Below the pieces are notes generated by a model. It was not told the DNA's origin. It did no database searches and was given only the letters and a program-made list of their open reading frames with translations. Source: a virus. From it: a DNA stretch of 64,000 nucleotides. Each line of letters begins with the position of its first letter. Within the stretch, counting starts at the first letter, position 1. The stretch spans positions 1-64,000 of IMG/VR virus record IMGVR_UViG_3300046512_000174; one strand, 5' to 3'. Below, in pieces: positions 30,251 through 59,370 of the stretch. The translations under genes and the position numbers were made by a program.

Positions 30251-33130
30251 ATGAATGACCACGCGGCAATCAACAAGTTCCTAGAAGCAATGGCGGAACA
30301 AGACATCGTTCCGAGCCAGAACCTTAATTTCGAAGGAAAGCTTGAGCGTTTCCACGTTCAGGGTGATGCCCTCGGCAGCCGAAACGGCTGGGCTATCCTT
30401 CACATCGACAGCGCACCGGCCGGTCAGTTCGGTTGCAACAAGCGTTACGGCGATCATAAGTTCTCTTGGAGCGCTGGCATCAGTGCCACTCCGATGACTG
30501 AAGCCGAAAAGAAAAAACAGCGTGAAGACTGGGCAAAGCAGAAGGCAGAAACAGAGAAGCGCCGCGCTGCTGAGCGTGATGCTGCCGCTGTTCGAGCGCA
30601 GTCCGTCTGGGACGCCAGCGCACCAGCCACTGATGATCATCCGTACCTCGTTCGGAAGGGCGTCAAGGCGCACGGCCTGCGCGTGGGCAAGTGGGAATTC
30701 ATCAATGCCGATACCGGTGAAGTAACCTGTCTGACCAATCAGGCGCTGCTGGTTCCGCTGAGCGACAAGACCCGAAAAATTCACAGCCTGCAGGGCATTT
30801 TCCCCGGCAAAATCCTTGGTCGCGGCGAAGGTGCGCGCGATAAGGACTACCTGAAAAATGGCGCCAAGATTGGCATGTTTCACGCCATCGGCAAGCCGCA
30901 GATGGTCGACGGCAACCCGGTATTCGTTATCTGCGAAGGCTATGCCACCGGCGCATCCATCCATGAAGAAACCAACCATCTGGTGCTGGTCACTTTCGAT
31001 GTGACCAACCTGCTCACGGTTGCCAAGGCGATCCGCGACAGCAAGCCTGATGCGATCATCGTGTTTGCCGTCGATAACGATGTCTGGACCAAAAAGCCAG
31101 TCGAAAACCCGGGCGTCCATTACGCAACGATCGCGGCAAAAGCCGTTGGCGGGCTGCTGGCCATTCCGCCATTCGTCCATGCCGATGGCACCCAAGATTC
31201 GGCCGGCAAGTGGTCTGGCCCCACTGACTTCAATGATTTGCAGGTGCGTGATGGTGCTGGCGCGATAAAGGCCATCTTCGACGACGTCATTGCAAACCGA
31301 AGCCTGCCGCCAGAGCCCGAGCCAGAACCTCCGATGCCTTGGGAGGACGGTCCACCCGACTACCTCACCGAAGACATCCCGCCGGCGGCATTGGATGATT
31401 CAGCCGATAGCGCATCATCTCCACCGGCAGAGCCACCAGCGGCGGCAAGCGGCGGCCCGAAAGACCCGATTGTCCCCGCTGAAAAGGATGAAGACGATCT
31501 GGTCAAGAATGCCCACTTCACGATCCTCGGTTACGATGGGCAGACCTATTTCCTGTTCCAGCACGAAAAGAAACAGGTGCTGGAGATCACCAAAAAGGAC
31601 CTGAGCGATGTTGGCCTGATCGAGCTGGCCGACCTTTACTGGTGGGAGATGAATTTCGGCAACGGCAACGGCGGGATCGACAAAAAGGCCGTTGCTCAGT
31701 GGCTGTTCCGCACGGCGAACGGTCGCGGTATCTACGATCCTTCGCGGATCCGTGGGCGTGGTGCATGGGCTGATAAAGGGCGCGCGGTGTTCCACCACGG
31801 CTCCTACCTGACCGTAAATGGCGAGCACACCGACATCACCGCCATCAAATCAGCCTACGTCTACCCGATGGCGCGCGAACTGCCGCAGCCGTCAGAGACG
31901 CCGCTGACCGATGCGGAAGGCGACCATCTCGTCGGCGTTGCCGATATGGTCCGCTGGAACATGCCGGGCAGCGCGGCGCTGATGGCCGGCTTCGTGATGC
32001 TGGCTCCGATCTGCGGTGCGCTGACATGGCGTCCCCACATCTGGCTGACAGGCGTGGCCGGCTCTGGCAAGTCAACCGTTCAGAACAAGTTCTGCGCGGC
32101 CCTGCTGCGTGGTGTTGGCCAGTACTACTCTGGCGACAGTACAGAGGCCGGTATCCGTCAAGATCTCAAGGCAGACGCGCTGCCGGTGCTGATCGATGAG
32201 GCTGAATCGAACAACGAGCGCGACAAGCAGCGGATCGAGAACGTCATCGGCCTGATCCGGAAAACCTCGACCGAGTCGCAGATGCACACGGCCAAGGGCA
32301 CCGTTTCCGGAAACAGCCAGCACTTCCAAATCAGGTCGATGTTCTGTCTGGCTTCGATCAACGTCAACCTGCCGACCAAGGCCGATATCGACCGCCTGAC
32401 CATCCTCTCGATCAAGAAGGCAAAAGAGGGTGACGTCGACAACTGGCCTGAGCTTGAGGCTGAGCTGAACAAGATTGATCAGGACGAAACCATGTCCAGC
32501 CGGCTGTTGGCCCGCGCGCTAAAGCTGATGCCGGTGATCCTCGAATCGGTGAAGGTGTTCCGCAAGGCCGCCGCCATCCACTTCAAGGACCAGCGCTATG
32601 GTGACCAGTTCGGCACCCTGCTGGCGGGCTGCTGGTGTCTGATGAAAAGCTACGTGCCGCAGGAATATGAGGCACTGGCCATGATCAAGGGCTACAACTG
32701 GCAGGAGCACACCGAAGATCAGGATCAGGATGACTCGGCCAAGGCGCTTGAGGCGCTGCTGAGCGCGAAGATTCGCCTGCCGGGCAATCTAGGTGACCTG
32801 ACGGTCTACGAGCTGATACGCGAGTCGACAACGTCGTTCCGTCACGGTGGCGGCGTTGATATGGACGTGGCCGACCAAACGCTGCGCCGTCACGGGATCC
32901 TCGTCGAGAGCGGGCGCCTGTTGTTCGGTACCGGCGTGAGCAACCTCAAAGAGCTGATCGCCAAGATGCCAGCCATCACCAACTTGCGCGACCAGCTGCT
33001 GCGAGTGAAGGACGCCGATCGAGTGGGCACCAAGAGCTTCAACGGTACCAAGTCAAAGTGCGTGTCTATCCCTCTAGTTCCGATCCTCGGCGAGGCAAAC
33101 AAGGAGGAGGACGACGGCAAGCCGTTCTGA
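30251..33130 (+). CDS. Primase-helicase (TOPRIM plus ATPase)
   Basis: A 959-residue protein. The N-terminal region (1-200) is a DNA-binding/primase-associated part without an obvious Cys4 zinc finger. TOPRIM motifs follow at E229 (FVICEGYATGAS) and D275-N-D277 (FAVDNDV). A Pro/Ala-rich linker runs at about 355-420. A DUF927-like helicase domain has Walker A GVAGSGKST (601-609) and LPVLIDEAESNN. It synthesises primers and unwinds the fork. The C-terminus KEEDDGKPF resembles an SSB tip. Expression may be controlled by the structured leader. Confidence 0.88.
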   Translation: MNDHAAINKFLEAMAEQDIVPSQNLNFEGKLERFHVQGDALGSRNGWAILHIDSAPAGQFGCNKRYGDHKFSWSAGISATPMTEAEKKKQREDWAKQKAETEKRRAAERDAAAVRAQSVWDASAPATDDHPYLVRKGVKAHGLRVGKWEFINADTGEVTCLTNQALLVPLSDKTRKIHSLQGIFPGKILGRGEGARDKDYLKNGAKIGMFHAIGKPQMVDGNPVFVICEGYATGASIHEETNHLVLVTFDVTNLLTVAKAIRDSKPDAIIVFAVDNDVWTKKPVENPGVHYATIAAKAVGGLLAIPPFVHADGTQDSAGKWSGPTDFNDLQVRDGAGAIKAIFDDVIANRSLPPEPEPEPPMPWEDGPPDYLTEDIPPAALDDSADSASSPPAEPPAAASGGPKDPIVPAEKDEDDLVKNAHFTILGYDGQTYFLFQHEKKQVLEITKKDLSDVGLIELADLYWWEMNFGNGNGGIDKKAVAQWLFRTANGRGIYDPSRIRGRGAWADKGRAVFHHGSYLTVNGEHTDITAIKSAYVYPMARELPQPSETPLTDAEGDHLVGVADMVRWNMPGSAALMAGFVMLAPICGALTWRPHIWLTGVAGSGKSTVQNKFCAALLRGVGQYYSGDSTEAGIRQDLKADALPVLIDEAESNNERDKQRIENVIGLIRKTSTESQMHTAKGTVSGNSQHFQIRSMFCLASINVNLPTKADIDRLTILSIKKAKEGDVDNWPELEAELNKIDQDETMSSRLLARALKLMPVILESVKVFRKAAAIHFKDQRYGDQFGTLLAGCWCLMKSYVPQEYEALAMIKGYNWQEHTEDQDQDDSAKALEALLSAKIRLPGNLGDLTVYELIRESTTSFRHGGGVDMDVADQTLRRHGILVESGRLLFGTGVSNLKELIAKMPAITNLRDQLLRVKDADRVGTKSFNGTKSKCVSIPLVPILGEANKEEDDGKPF

Positions 33131-35360: not shown

Positions 35361-35396
35361 GCCCAAATAATAACGCCGTTACTCATATTTGAGCAA
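35361..35396 (-). promoter_or_regulatory. Accessory unit 1 promoter with operator site 5
   Basis: Operator TTACTCATATTTGAGCAA (35379-35396) is the centre of a 26-bp palindrome (35375-35400, arms GCCGTT/AACGGC). On the minus strand its TTGCTC arm serves as -35, followed by N18 and -10 TATTAT. The promoter drives 35336 down to 33182. Confidence 0.78.
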
Positions 35397-47103: not shown

Positions 47104-48039
47104 TTATTTCACCACGTACCAGTACACGCTGCCGTTCGAGGCGCTGACCAAGCGGGCATTCATGTATTGGCGCCCATTCACCGCCTGAGTGGCAACTTCC
47201 TTGGCGCTGGCTTCGCGCATCGCTGCCTCACCGGCCAAGCGAATCCAGTCACCGCTGAGTTTCTGATATTCGATTTTGTACATGTCAGCCTCTACCCGTT
47301 GTTGTTCGCGATCGAACAGTTCGCCGATGGTGCCCTCATTCAGTGGATCCGCAGCGCGCCATTCGATGGCGTCGGCTTCGAATGCAAAGGTGGCGCGGTA
47401 CTGTCGTCCAGCGTAAGCCAACCATTCGCCGCTGTTGGCGATGCGTTCGATGCGGCGGAAGGCTGGTGCTTCTTCGGCCGGCTCGGCAACTGGTGGGGTC
47501 GGTGCCGGGGCATCGCAGGTCATGTCGTAGTGATCGGCGATCAGGGCGATGGCTTCGGTCTTGGTGACCAGCTTCGGGCGGGCACCCACATGCTGTGCAT
47601 TGGTCAGCACCCAAGTGACCCGAGGCGTTGTCCCATTGTATTTGGTGTTGCAGCGCAGCACGCCGGAAGTGACACGGCCGTTCTCACGGTACTCGATGCC
47701 CATGCTGGTGCAGCCGGCTTCTTTGGCATGTTCGAGCATCTGGCCTGCGGTGATTTGAGCAGATTCTTGATGAGTGTTCATGCTTGGCTCAGCTGGTATC
47801 GCTGCTGGCTTGTGCGGGCTATCAATGCGGGCAACCTCTTTACGAGTGCCGCTTTCATCATCGACCTCAACCACGCGAATTGGTGGGCGCATACCGCTGC
47901 AGCTGAAGCGCTCATTCATGCGGTGAACAGCAGCGTTGAAGCCGCGAGGCTTGTCATCGTGCTCCAGCCATTCCGCGTCAACGTCGAACGCTTTGCCGTT
48001 GGAGCCAAACACTTGCTGGGTCTCAATGCGGTATTTCAT
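47104..48039 (-). CDS. Multi-segment phage protein, first gene of accessory unit 5
   Basis: A 311-residue protein with SD AGGGA. It contains a pattern used for small phage domains (FNAAVHRMNERFSCSGMRPPIRVVEVDDESGTRKEVARIDSP). A middle section has VTWVLTNAQHVGARPKLVTKTEAIALIADHYD. The end is YKIEYQKLSGDWIRLAGEAAMREASAKEVATQAVNGRQYMNARLVSA. A Pro/Ala/Glu linker lies near residue 185. It appears to be a fusion of two or three accessory domains. Function unknown. Confidence 0.66.
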   Translation of the reverse strand: MKYRIETQQVFGSNGKAFDVDAEWLEHDDKPRGFNAAVHRMNERFSCSGMRPPIRVVEVDDESGTRKEVARIDSPHKPAAIPAEPSMNTHQESAQITAGQMLEHAKEAGCTSMGIEYRENGRVTSGVLRCNTKYNGTTPRVTWVLTNAQHVGARPKLVTKTEAIALIADHYDMTCDAPAPTPPVAEPAEEAPAFRRIERIANSGEWLAYAGRQYRATFAFEADAIEWRAADPLNEGTIGELFDREQQRVEADMYKIEYQKLSGDWIRLAGEAAMREASAKEVATQAVNGRQYMNARLVSASNGSVYWYVVK

Positions 48040-48077
48040 GGTCGTTTCCCTGTTCGGTTGATTGCTTGGATGGGTGA

Positions 48078-48106
48078 ATCATACGGCGTTACTCAAATTT
48101 GATCAA
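48078..48106 (-). promoter_or_regulatory. Accessory unit 5 promoter with operator site 9
   Basis: Operator TTACTCAAATTTGATCAA (48089-48106), identical to site 6. Minus-strand promoter TTGATC-N17-TATGAT. It drives 48039 down to 45789. Confidence 0.77.
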
Positions 48107-48358
48107 TGCCATTGTGATAACAATTCGTTCTAAGCCAAAAGCCACCCGCTGCGGGCAGGCATATGCCCTCACGGCCTGACCGCGCCGCCGAACGGACACA
48201 TTTGCACATAACTCAAAAAGTTCCGCGTCCAAAATGGCGAACCGACGACCTGACCGCCACGGTCACCCGCCAGCCGACCCCCTCGCGCACCCAAAACGGA
48301 ACCCCTCGCCATGGGTGGATTGCGGTCGATTTGAGGGTGCTGGTCACCAAAAAGGAGC

Positions 48359-48865
48359 GGTTACCGGGACGGTTTTTGGTGGTAACCGGTTACCGGAACA
48401 GCAAAGGTAACCATGCTCAGATATGAGTAAGCACACCTGTAAATGCTGGGTAGTTACCGGCAAAGTTACCACCTGTTACCCCTATCCGGTTACCTTTGAT
48501 GCAGTTACCTCGAAACCACCTGCAATTGCTGGGGTAACCGATTTGCGGTTACCGCCGGTTACGCCGCGTATTTGATGATTGCGCAAGCAATATAAGGGGT
48601 AACCGAGGCATGTCAGTTTTGCGGTAACCGGGTAACCCGGATCGAAAGCAAATATAAATTAACCCTCGGAAATATCATCCCCGACATCACCCCCTACAAC
48701 CCCCTCCAAAAAATACACGGTTATATATATCCAGTTACTGGTTACCTTGACCCTTATTATTATTATTTATTGAGTATCTAGTGATATATATAAAGGGCTT
48801 TTTGGGGTAACCAGAAAGGTAACCAAGGGGTAACCCGACCGCTTTTCCGGGGTTACCCGGTTACC
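48359..48865. repeat. GGTWACC heptamer array, 16 exact copies
   Basis: Exact GGTAACC or GGTTACC start at 48359, 48381, 48388, 48406, 48488, 48533, 48547, 48598, 48623, 48631, 48740, 48806, 48818, 48829, 48851 and 48859. Near matches (one base off) start at 48452, 48464, 48474, 48503 and 48557; GGTCACC occurs at 48261 and 48342. By chance well under one exact copy is expected in 500 bp. The heptamer is a palindrome around the central base pair, so orientation is neutral. Spacing is irregular (7-109 bp). Confidence 0.85.
48413..48430. promoter_or_regulatory. Operator site 10 inside the iteron region
   Basis: ATGCTCAGATATGAGTAA, one base from the consensus at the first position and strongly palindromic. 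No clear promoter overlaps it, so it may link repressor binding to origin activity or act as a transcription block. Confidence 0.6.
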
Positions 48866-49008
48866 TCTGGAAAAATGCGGGGTAGCAGCGTGCCATTGTG
48901 TTGCACAGGGTTGCGTGCAATCGCTGAATGGTTAATCATTCTTGGGGTACACCGACCATCCCGACGAACGGTGATTGGATCCGTTAGCGCAGCCCAAGAG
49001 ATAACCGT

Positions 49009-49590
49009 ATGATCGCCGGCAATCCCATTGACCCGCAGGTGGCTGTGATGCAATCGAATTCGATTGAGTACTTCACGTATCCCGAGCTGCCTGATCGTCC
49101 GATGTTCGAGTGCGCAGCACTCAGGGCAACCCTGCAAGTCGAGCGCTGTGCAGGGATGTGGACCGAGGCTAATGGGAAAAACCCACCAGAACGTCTGGCC
49201 AAGTGCAGGAACTGTCCGATCGGCGCGCTGCATGCCGGGGAAGTGGAGTTCGACGTGTCAGTGCTGCGGGGAACCGGGATCTGTTCTCGGTGCCACCGGG
49301 GCGGCATGCGGTTGATCGGCGGTGACATCTGCGTCAGCTGCTGGAACAGGGCTCGCGAAGTCATCGTCGGACGCAATGCCAAGGGCAAACCGCCCAAGAT
49401 TCACCCGCCGCTGGCACCACGGTCGATCACCGTCCGGTCAGGCGGCCAGAACATCACGATCAAACGTGAGCACTCGGTCAGCACCGATGAGCTGGTGGTG
49501 GCCGGTTTGAGAGATTGCACCCGGCAGGTTCTGTTCGGATTCAGTGCAACGAGAAAGGTTCCTATTTGCGTCCAAGGGGAGTTGTTCTGA
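49009..49590 (+). CDS. Cys-rich zinc-finger phage protein
   Basis: A 193-residue protein. The N-terminal half has FECAALRATLQVERCAGMWTEANGKNPPERLAKCRNCPIGALHAG, the middle GICSRCHRGGMRLIGGDICVSCWNRAREVIVGRNAKGKPPK, so two possible zinc sites. The second half is basic with beta strands (SITVRSGGQNITIKREHSVSTDELVVAGLRDCTRQVLFGF). It is the first rightward gene beside the candidate origin. DNA binding is plausible; family not recognised. Confidence 0.7.
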   Translation: MIAGNPIDPQVAVMQSNSIEYFTYPELPDRPMFECAALRATLQVERCAGMWTEANGKNPPERLAKCRNCPIGALHAGEVEFDVSVLRGTGICSRCHRGGMRLIGGDICVSCWNRAREVIVGRNAKGKPPKIHPPLAPRSITVRSGGQNITIKREHSVSTDELVVAGLRDCTRQVLFGFSATRKVPICVQGELF

Positions 49591-57537: not shown

Positions 57538-59043
57538 ATGGACATGAACCAGATGATGGGCCTCGACGTCGAGATCCCGCAAATCACCCTGCGGCCGATC
57601 GAAAGCATGGTCGCCTACCACAACAACTCGCGCACGCACTCGATCGGGCAGCTGGCCGAGATTGGCGCAAGCCTGCTGGAATTTGGTTGGACCAACCCGA
57701 TTCTGGCCGATGCGCTGGGCACCGTCGCCGGCCACGGACGCACCATGGCCGCCGCCGAGCTGTATCGCCAAGGCAAGCAGATCCTGTTCCCCAACGGTTC
57801 GCCGATCCCGATCGGCATGGTGCCCGTGGTCGACTGCACCGGCTGGAGCGATGCCCAGCGCCGCGCCTACATCATCGCCGACAACAAGCTGGCCCTGAAC
57901 GCGGGGTGGGACATGGACCTGCTGAGTATCGAATTGACCGAGCTGGGCGAACTGGGTTTCGACCTATCGCTGACCGGCTTCAACGAGGATGAACTCGCCG
58001 ACCTGCTCACGATCGAGGAGCCTGAGCTGCCGGACGCTGATCCAGATGCCGCGCCAGCGCTAGAGGACAACGCCGTTTCCGTGCTCGGCGATGTCTGGGT
58101 GCTCGGCCCGCACCGGGTCTGTTGCGGTGACAGCACCAGCCTCGATGATTGGGATCGCCTGATGCAGGGCGAGCGCGCCGATATCTGCTGGACTGACCCG
58201 CCGTACAACGTGGACGTCGGCCGGAAAAACCGCCTGATGGACACCGTCGATGGCCAGTCGCGAGGGGCAACCGGATCGCTGAAGAACGACAAGATGAGCG
58301 ACGCCGACTTCGGTGAGTTCATGCTCGACTTCTACAAGGCCACGATCGAGCAGCTGAAGGCCGGCGCGCCGATCTACGTGGCGCACGCCGATCGCACCGG
58401 GGACATTTTCCGGAACGCTTTCATCGCCGCCGGCTTCCACTTCAGTCAGACGATCATCTGGCGCAAGAACAACCATGTGCTCGGCGTGGCCGACTACCAG
58501 TCGATCCACGAACCAATCCTGTACGGCTGGCGCCCGGGCTCGAAACACAAGTGGCATGGCGGCCGGAAGAACAAGACCGTCATTGAAATCGGCGAAGGCG
58601 GCCCGATCAGCAAGACCGAGGACGGCCGGTGGGTGATCAAGGTCGGTGATCAGGTGCTGATCGTCGATGGTCAGGCGACCCTGCAGGAAAGCCAGTCGTC
58701 GATGATCTACGAGCCGAAGCCGGCCAAGTCAGGTCTGCACCCGACGCAGAAGCCCGTTGCACTGGTCGAGCGGATGCTGAAGAACAGCGCGCGCTCCGGT
58801 GATCTGGTGGTCGACGCGTTCGGCGGTTCCGGGACCACGCTGCTGGCAGCCGACCGCATGGGCATGTCTGCCCGACTTATGGAACTCGACCCGCGTTTCG
58901 CCGACGTGATCGTGCGGCGCTGGCAGGATTACACCGGGCGCCGTGCGTGCCATGCGCTCACTGGCGAACTGTTCCCCGGTGAGGGCGAGGTTCGTCCGGA
59001 TCCGGCGCCGCAACCACCGATGGGCGATGAGGATATTTTCTGA
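57538..59043 (+). CDS. ParB-like nuclease domain fused to DNA methyltransferase
   Basis: A 501-residue protein. Residues about 15-115 are a ParB/Srx-like domain (LRPIESMVAYHNNSRTHSIGQLAEIGASLLEFGWTNPILADALGTVAGHGRTMAAAELYRQG) with GHGR. The methylase part has DPPY at 220-223 and FGGSGTT at 428-434. Its partner genes on both sides are coupled (TGATG at 59043). Such ParB-methylases occur near terminases in several phages. The end MGDEDIF looks like an SSB-type acidic tip. Confidence 0.88.
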   Translation: MDMNQMMGLDVEIPQITLRPIESMVAYHNNSRTHSIGQLAEIGASLLEFGWTNPILADALGTVAGHGRTMAAAELYRQGKQILFPNGSPIPIGMVPVVDCTGWSDAQRRAYIIADNKLALNAGWDMDLLSIELTELGELGFDLSLTGFNEDELADLLTIEEPELPDADPDAAPALEDNAVSVLGDVWVLGPHRVCCGDSTSLDDWDRLMQGERADICWTDPPYNVDVGRKNRLMDTVDGQSRGATGSLKNDKMSDADFGEFMLDFYKATIEQLKAGAPIYVAHADRTGDIFRNAFIAAGFHFSQTIIWRKNNHVLGVADYQSIHEPILYGWRPGSKHKWHGGRKNKTVIEIGEGGPISKTEDGRWVIKVGDQVLIVDGQATLQESQSSMIYEPKPAKSGLHPTQKPVALVERMLKNSARSGDLVVDAFGGSGTTLLAADRMGMSARLMELDPRFADVIVRRWQDYTGRRACHALTGELFPGEGEVRPDPAPQPPMGDEDIF

Positions 59044-59340: not shown

Positions 59341-59370
59341 TTGCTCAAATCCGATTAATGCGCGCATAAT
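59341..59370 (+). promoter_or_regulatory. Rightward promoter with operator site 13
   Basis: Operator TTGCTCAAATCCGATTAA (59341-59358). Its left arm is the -35 TTGCTC, followed by N18 and -10 CATAAT (59365-59370). It drives the genes from 59402. Confidence 0.75.

Follow-up and report, generated by a model that had tools for sequence, protein, structure and literature searches.

In the SaPI elements, the iterons of the origin flank an AT-rich segment and differ from one SaPI to another. The Rep proteins of these elements and the Cch and Cch2 proteins of SCCmec are self-loading AAA+ helicases with a C-terminal domain, acting at an origin of multiple short iterons, and in Cch2 and SaPI Rep the iterons are bound via this C-terminal domain (PMC7581432). 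The locus described here appears to share this general plan. It differs in that its helicase belongs to a tailed phage of ~90 kb and is fused to a Toprim-type primase, in that its iterons are many more, and in that ~15 kb separate the proposed origin from the putative initiator gene; in SaPIs, the origin is found next to rep.

Two other systems are comparable. In satellite phage P4, the alpha protein joins a primase to a helicase and carries a DNA-binding domain at its C terminus, and the iterons (ori and crr) lie away from the alpha gene. As judged from this description, the present locus resembles P4 both in the primase-helicase fusion with its C-terminal domain and in the iterons far from the gene. 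Plasmid origins of the RepA/TrfA type are similar in having short direct iterons that adjoin AT-rich DNA. Unlike these, the present locus has no winged-helix plasmid Rep among the proteins examined and no exact DnaA box (TTWTNCACA) in the intergenic gap at 48040-49008.

Here, we analyze a window of 64,000 nucleotides that begins at position 1 of an IMG/VR virus record of 93,465 bp (IMGVR_UViG_3300046512_000174). The ends of the record overlap by 127 bp, which indicates a closed phage genome of ~93.3 kb. The gap carries a dense array of short repeats that, judging from sequence comparison and structural modelling, is likely to be a replication origin of the iteron type read by the phage primase-helicase. 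On this reading, it would belong with the iteron origins opened by helicases that load themselves, here in ~90-kb phages. No origin description for this ~90-kb phage/prophage group was found in the literature searched.

The Iteron Array and Its Intergenic Gap

A sequence-only reading of the window had proposed an iteron origin on the strength of sixteen exact GGTWACC heptamers, and exactly 16 are present at 48359-48865. The one-mismatch copies that it mentioned are also found, five of them inside this span (at 48452, 48464, 48474, 48503, and 48557), and GGTCACC occurs just outside it at 48261 and 48342. Outside the array, GGTWACC is found at 4 other positions in the 64-kb window and at 12 in the whole 93-kb record, and the genome holds a heptamer array at one place only. 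The gap itself, given earlier as 900 bp and divergent, measures 969 bp and separates a minus-strand open reading frame (ORF) from a plus-strand ORF. In a first-order Markov simulation of the 969-bp gap (2000 runs), the mean number of GGTWACC copies is 0.05 with the composition of the genome and 0.31 with that of the gap, with a maximum of 3, in agreement with the earlier estimate of well under one copy by chance. The locus thus holds many short repeats clustered in noncoding DNA. The features discussed in the text are collected in Table 1.

Table 1. Positions of the iteron array, the neighbouring genes, and the primase-helicase in the window.
Feature	Position	Strand	Description
Primase-helicase, proposed iteron-binding initiator	30251..33130	+	959 aa; primase half with Toprim_3, helicase half of AAA+ type, and C-terminal domain; Pfam/PHROG, AlphaFold2, Foldseek
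C-terminal domain of primase-helicase, proposed iteron-binding domain	32666..33124	+	
Left flanking ORF	47104..48039	-	311 aa; no Pfam/PHROG hit; no homologue in phage collection
Palindromic operator TTACTCAAATTTGATCAA	48089..48106	.	Also at 35379, 39888, 41003, 45741; weaker match at 59341
Left iteron block	48359..48637	.	10 exact GGTWACC and 5 one-mismatch copies, both orientations
Left-edge iteron(s) of AT-rich segment	48733..48746	-	Degenerate AGTTACT (48733) and GGTTACC (48740); inverted relative to right-hand triad
AT-rich segment, proposed DNA-unwinding element	48747..48805	.	CCTTATTATTATTATTTATTG...GATATATATAAAGGGCTTTTTGG
Right triad, three direct GGTAACC	48806..48835	+	At 48806, 48818, 48829; spacing 12 and 11 bp; abuts AT-rich segment
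Inverted iteron pair GGTTACC	48851..48865	-	At 48851, 48859; 8 bp apart
Zinc-ribbon-like protein beside array	49009..49590	+	193 aa, eight conserved cysteines

The AT-rich DNA reported beside the array is likewise present, the stretch 48721-48800 being 74% A+T. The AT-rich segment proper is flanked by iterons on its left edge and by the direct triad on its right, and a similar arrangement occurs in relatives: left-edge iterons are present in several of them, and relatives of other iteron classes have a comparable AT-rich segment. Of the architectural elements of the array, the right direct triad is the most conserved. GC skew, which had been proposed as a check and was computed over the window and the whole record, is weak, tracks gene direction, and is uninformative on the origin. 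Compared by BLASTN with phages and plasmids, the gap had no matches, and Rfam and tRNA scans were empty.

Iteron Arrays in Related Phages

Relatives were identified by tblastn with the primase-helicase and include the Pseudomonas phages Touem01, Dolphis, and Jeremy, Aeromonas phage ST4, Bordetella phage PHB04, Morganella phage Mecenats66, Yersinia phage fHe-Yen8-01, and Enterobacter phage phiT5282EW. Arrays were scored in these relatives by hexamer enrichment against simulations, since a home-made motif EM proved too loose. The homologous gap carries an array in ST4, PHB04, Touem01, Dolphis, Jeremy, fHe-Yen8-01, phiT5282EW, and many IMG/VR contigs, most of these arrays being significant against simulation, and the repeated unit varies by lineage. 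The GGTWAC class is found in Touem01, Dolphis, and Jeremy; ST4 has 22 copies of GCTACC and PHB04 has 10 copies of GATACC, and other relatives use TGTTCC(AG), TGTSACA, GGTCGC/GGTTGC, GGAACC, GGTACA, or TGTAAC. Significant hexamer enrichment in the gap is absent in Mecenats66 and in L034, L041, L044, L059, and L068. In G022, no array was found elsewhere in the parts examined, namely those outside 39.8-54 kb together with loci spanning much of 39.8-54 kb.

The layout is conserved in many lineages. It consists of an AT-rich stretch, often with TTATTATTATTA, followed by three to four same-strand copies at a spacing of 10-13 bp. The successive spacings are 12 and 11 bp in the window, 12, 11, and 10 bp in Touem01, and 11 and 11 bp in fHe-Yen8-01, and among the contigs they are 12, 12, and 10 bp (L027), 12, 11, and 10 bp (L033), 12, 11, and 13 bp (L032), and 13, 11, and 10 bp (L051). 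Across 26 arrays, the spacing of same-strand neighbours peaks at 8 and at 11-12 bp. A direct triad was not seen with the motif used in ST4, PHB04, and several others, so the core layout is not universal. Divergent transcription, which had been counted as part of the origin layout, turns out not to be essential to it: in fHe-Yen8-01 and phiT5282EW the array lies between co-oriented genes. A varying spelling under a constant layout fits protein complexes that assemble in register beside a melting site, and these comparisons suggest that the iteron sequence of the family has changed repeatedly while a single core architecture was kept.

A Steroidobacter MAG shows a further iteron class: near position 5101 of L133, GAAACC occurs 16 times next to a homologue of the zinc protein.

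The Primase-Helicase and Its C-Terminal Domain

The P-loop helicase half of the primase-helicase gives weak AAA+/DUF5906 matches under Pfam cut-offs (DUF5906 E 0.0035), DUF927 was not found in the protein by Pfam, and a PDB sequence search with a primase profile returned only weak matches to the adenylylsulfate-kinase P-loop. An AlphaFold2 model of the helicase half with the C-terminal domain has a mean pLDDT of 78.7. In a Foldseek comparison with the PDB, its best match is SCCmec Cch (5dgk, E 7.5e-7), and the next are SaPI5 PriRep1 with dsDNA (7pds), NrS-1, and SaPI5 7ola, at modest TM-scores of 0.29-0.45 (global TM to Cch only 0.43-0.45). Weaker matches include vaccinia and mpox D5/E5 structures. 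The sequence-only reading had suggested that this protein could bind the array as P4 alpha does at its own ori. It is indeed the best-supported candidate reader; the closest structural analogue, however, is the SCCmec Cch/SaPI Rep group, and the likeness to P4 alpha is drawn from description.

The phage thus encodes an AAA+ helicase with a C-terminal domain for which a DNA-binding role may be proposed. In the model, this domain runs helix-strand-helix-helix-hairpin, an order that can be read as winged-helix-like. Homologues of the C-terminal domain without the helicase occur near arrays in L029, L031, and L032, which indicates that the domain can travel as a unit. Two of them (L029:7259-8200 and L031:7122-8378), just downstream of the zinc gene, have an N-terminal AntA antirepressor domain fused to the C-terminal-domain homologue. 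A stand-alone C-terminal domain may act as a regulator or a competitor at the origin. Another protein, which stands alone and weakly matches the C-terminal domain, is encoded on the other side of the array (L032:4721-5422 and L131:4721-5422, both minus strand).

In Dolphis (L012:4074-6986), the N-terminal half of the primase is unrelated to that of the window, being apparently a CHC2-type zinc-finger primase, and the helicase half is the same; the iteron class is shared, so the N-terminal half does not set it. In partial Mantel comparisons, array similarity follows the helicase core (r 0.43) no less closely than it follows the C-terminal domain (0.33) or the zinc protein (0.33). With the helicase core taken into account, no further signal comes from the C-terminal domain, nor is there a separate one for the zinc protein, and Mantel and partial Mantel tests together do not point to either as the determinant of specificity. 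Dolphis and L032 have C-terminal domains 69% identical and zinc proteins 83% identical, and their arrays differ. Such close pairs suggest that few specificity residues may be involved, whichever protein carries them.

Association of the Array with the Helicase

Homologues of the zinc protein beside the array are found in the same phages as the primase-helicase relatives and in 46 IMG/VR loci. The two genes are separable: Acjo_20, S-H1, KLER1-1, MQ-4, ZRG1, and PY223 have the homologous helicase half and, by tblastn, no zinc-protein homologue. In all six, the strongest hexamer cluster genome-wide (for ZRG1, within the first 50 kb, to which the scan was confined) is an array of GTTAC, GTTAG, or CTTAC type located in DNA that is mostly noncoding, and all six arrays exceed the simulated maxima. 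In Acjo_20, the array immediately precedes the helicase gene, and in S-H1 and KLER1-1 it sits at the 3' end of this gene or just beyond it, so that in these three phages the array stands directly beside the proposed initiator gene, from which it is ~15 kb away in the window phage. In MQ-4, ZRG1, and PY223, the arrays occupy other gaps, and those of MQ-4 and PY223 show an AT-rich stretch and then three direct copies, as in the family of the window.

Bacterial genomes with zinc-protein homologues point in the same direction. Of those that have the helicase, 5 of 8 show an array close to the zinc gene, versus 2 of 14 of those that lack it (Fisher p 0.05). In L148, one of the two helicase-less exceptions, a DUF5906 primase-helicase overlaps the array; the other, L153, runs against the association, having an array and no recognised primase-helicase within the locus. 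At L153:5701-6300, the CGTAAC cluster adjoins a 1388-aa protein with weak AAA/STAND-type matches.

Packaging, Transcription Control, and Partition as Less Probable Readings

The genes and sites around the array allow other readings, of which packaging deserves the most attention. The array could be part of a pac recognition region for the terminase or the zinc protein, with headful packaging starting alongside. The pac site of P1 is built of repeated hexamers, and the present array resembles it in that short repeats are clustered in a headful phage. The packaging initiation base of Mecenats66 (OL614104) has been verified experimentally and the genome reorganised to start there (PMC9503643); in the homologous zinc gene, this base sits 14 bp short of the end. 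Touem01 (PP179325), scored as Headful (pac) in a paper whose wording is inconsistent with its own table, opens 12 bp past the zinc-gene stop, and a small terminase gene was not found in Mecenats66. The pac cut in these two phages therefore falls at the zinc-gene 3' end, ~0.5-1 kb from the array, adjoining but outside it, and there are no iterons around the cut, which sets both apart from the P1 arrangement. Mecenats66 combines a verified pac with almost no array, which makes the packaging reading less probable. Arrays are also present in phages that lack the zinc protein, and in three of these the array stands next to the helicase gene. For MQ-4 and KLER1-1, a small terminase is annotated at the opposite end of the linear record. 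In the window phage, ~27 kb separate the array from the large terminase. We regard packaging as an improbable function of the array itself. The zinc protein, the model of which has no PDB fold match and which has no Pfam hit, may be a packaging-recognition factor of the small terminase kind, or its gene may simply contain the pac sequence.

A role in transcription control is about equally improbable. Here, a regulator, possibly the zinc protein, would bind the array to govern divergent early promoters, as might be expected from the divergence of the gap in most members and from the zinc protein being encoded beside the array in all nine phage-collection records that have it. However, the array is kept between co-oriented genes in fHe-Yen8-01 and phiT5282EW and is kept without the zinc protein, promoter-like matches are near chance, and twenty-odd sites around an AT-rich core would be unusual for an operator. 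The gap does contain a separate operator, as had been claimed, in the palindrome TTACTCAAATTTGATCAA, which has 10 strand matches at 6 places in the window against 0.05 expected. This operator recurs in the early region and occurs once in the gap, whereas the genome has a single heptamer array. The operator is apparently an early-gene control element separate from the iterons, and probably the site of an early repressor. Sequences similar to it are found in the gaps of relatives.

Partition is very improbable. On this reading, the array would be a centromere to which a ParB-like protein binds while the prophage persists in the manner of a plasmid. In its favour, Touem01 encodes a ParA-like protein, the window encodes a ParB-domain methyltransferase (57538-59043), and centromeres can be tandem short repeats. 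Against it, the arrays follow the helicase and sometimes directly adjoin its gene, iterons on both sides of an AT-rich core are arranged as in an origin, and no ParA-ParB pair was seen beside the array.

Proposed Mechanism and Implications

The iteron-origin reading is supported by arrays that occupy the same place with differing units and the same core layout, by arrays that stay with the helicase where the zinc gene is absent, and by a model whose top PDB match is a self-loading initiator helicase. A mechanism of initiation can be outlined on this basis. The C-terminal domain of the primase-helicase would bind GGTWACC on both sides of the AT-rich segment. The direct, roughly helically spaced iterons of the right triad and the inverted iterons at the left edge would position two AAA+ helicase assemblies at this segment, which would melt it and self-load in opposite directions. 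The fused primase would then prime for a polymerase, probably that of the host.

A bolder and rather unlikely extension is that the origin, the zinc-ribbon protein, and the pac cut form one module of ~1.2 kb, in which the zinc protein would mark new origin DNA for packaging and thereby couple the start of replication to the start of packaging; alongside, fast iteron turnover with fixed core spacing would supply natural initiator-iteron pairs for reading the recognition code.

With the iteron-origin reading, a widespread group of ~90-kb phages and prophages gains an origin that can be tested and a protein that is probably its initiator. In relatives, no more than about 1 kb separates the proposed origin from the point where packaging starts, so that a connection of the two processes can be tested as well. 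An iteron respelled many times under one core architecture, as it appears to have been here, would make this family a good system for how a self-loading helicase changes its DNA specificity.
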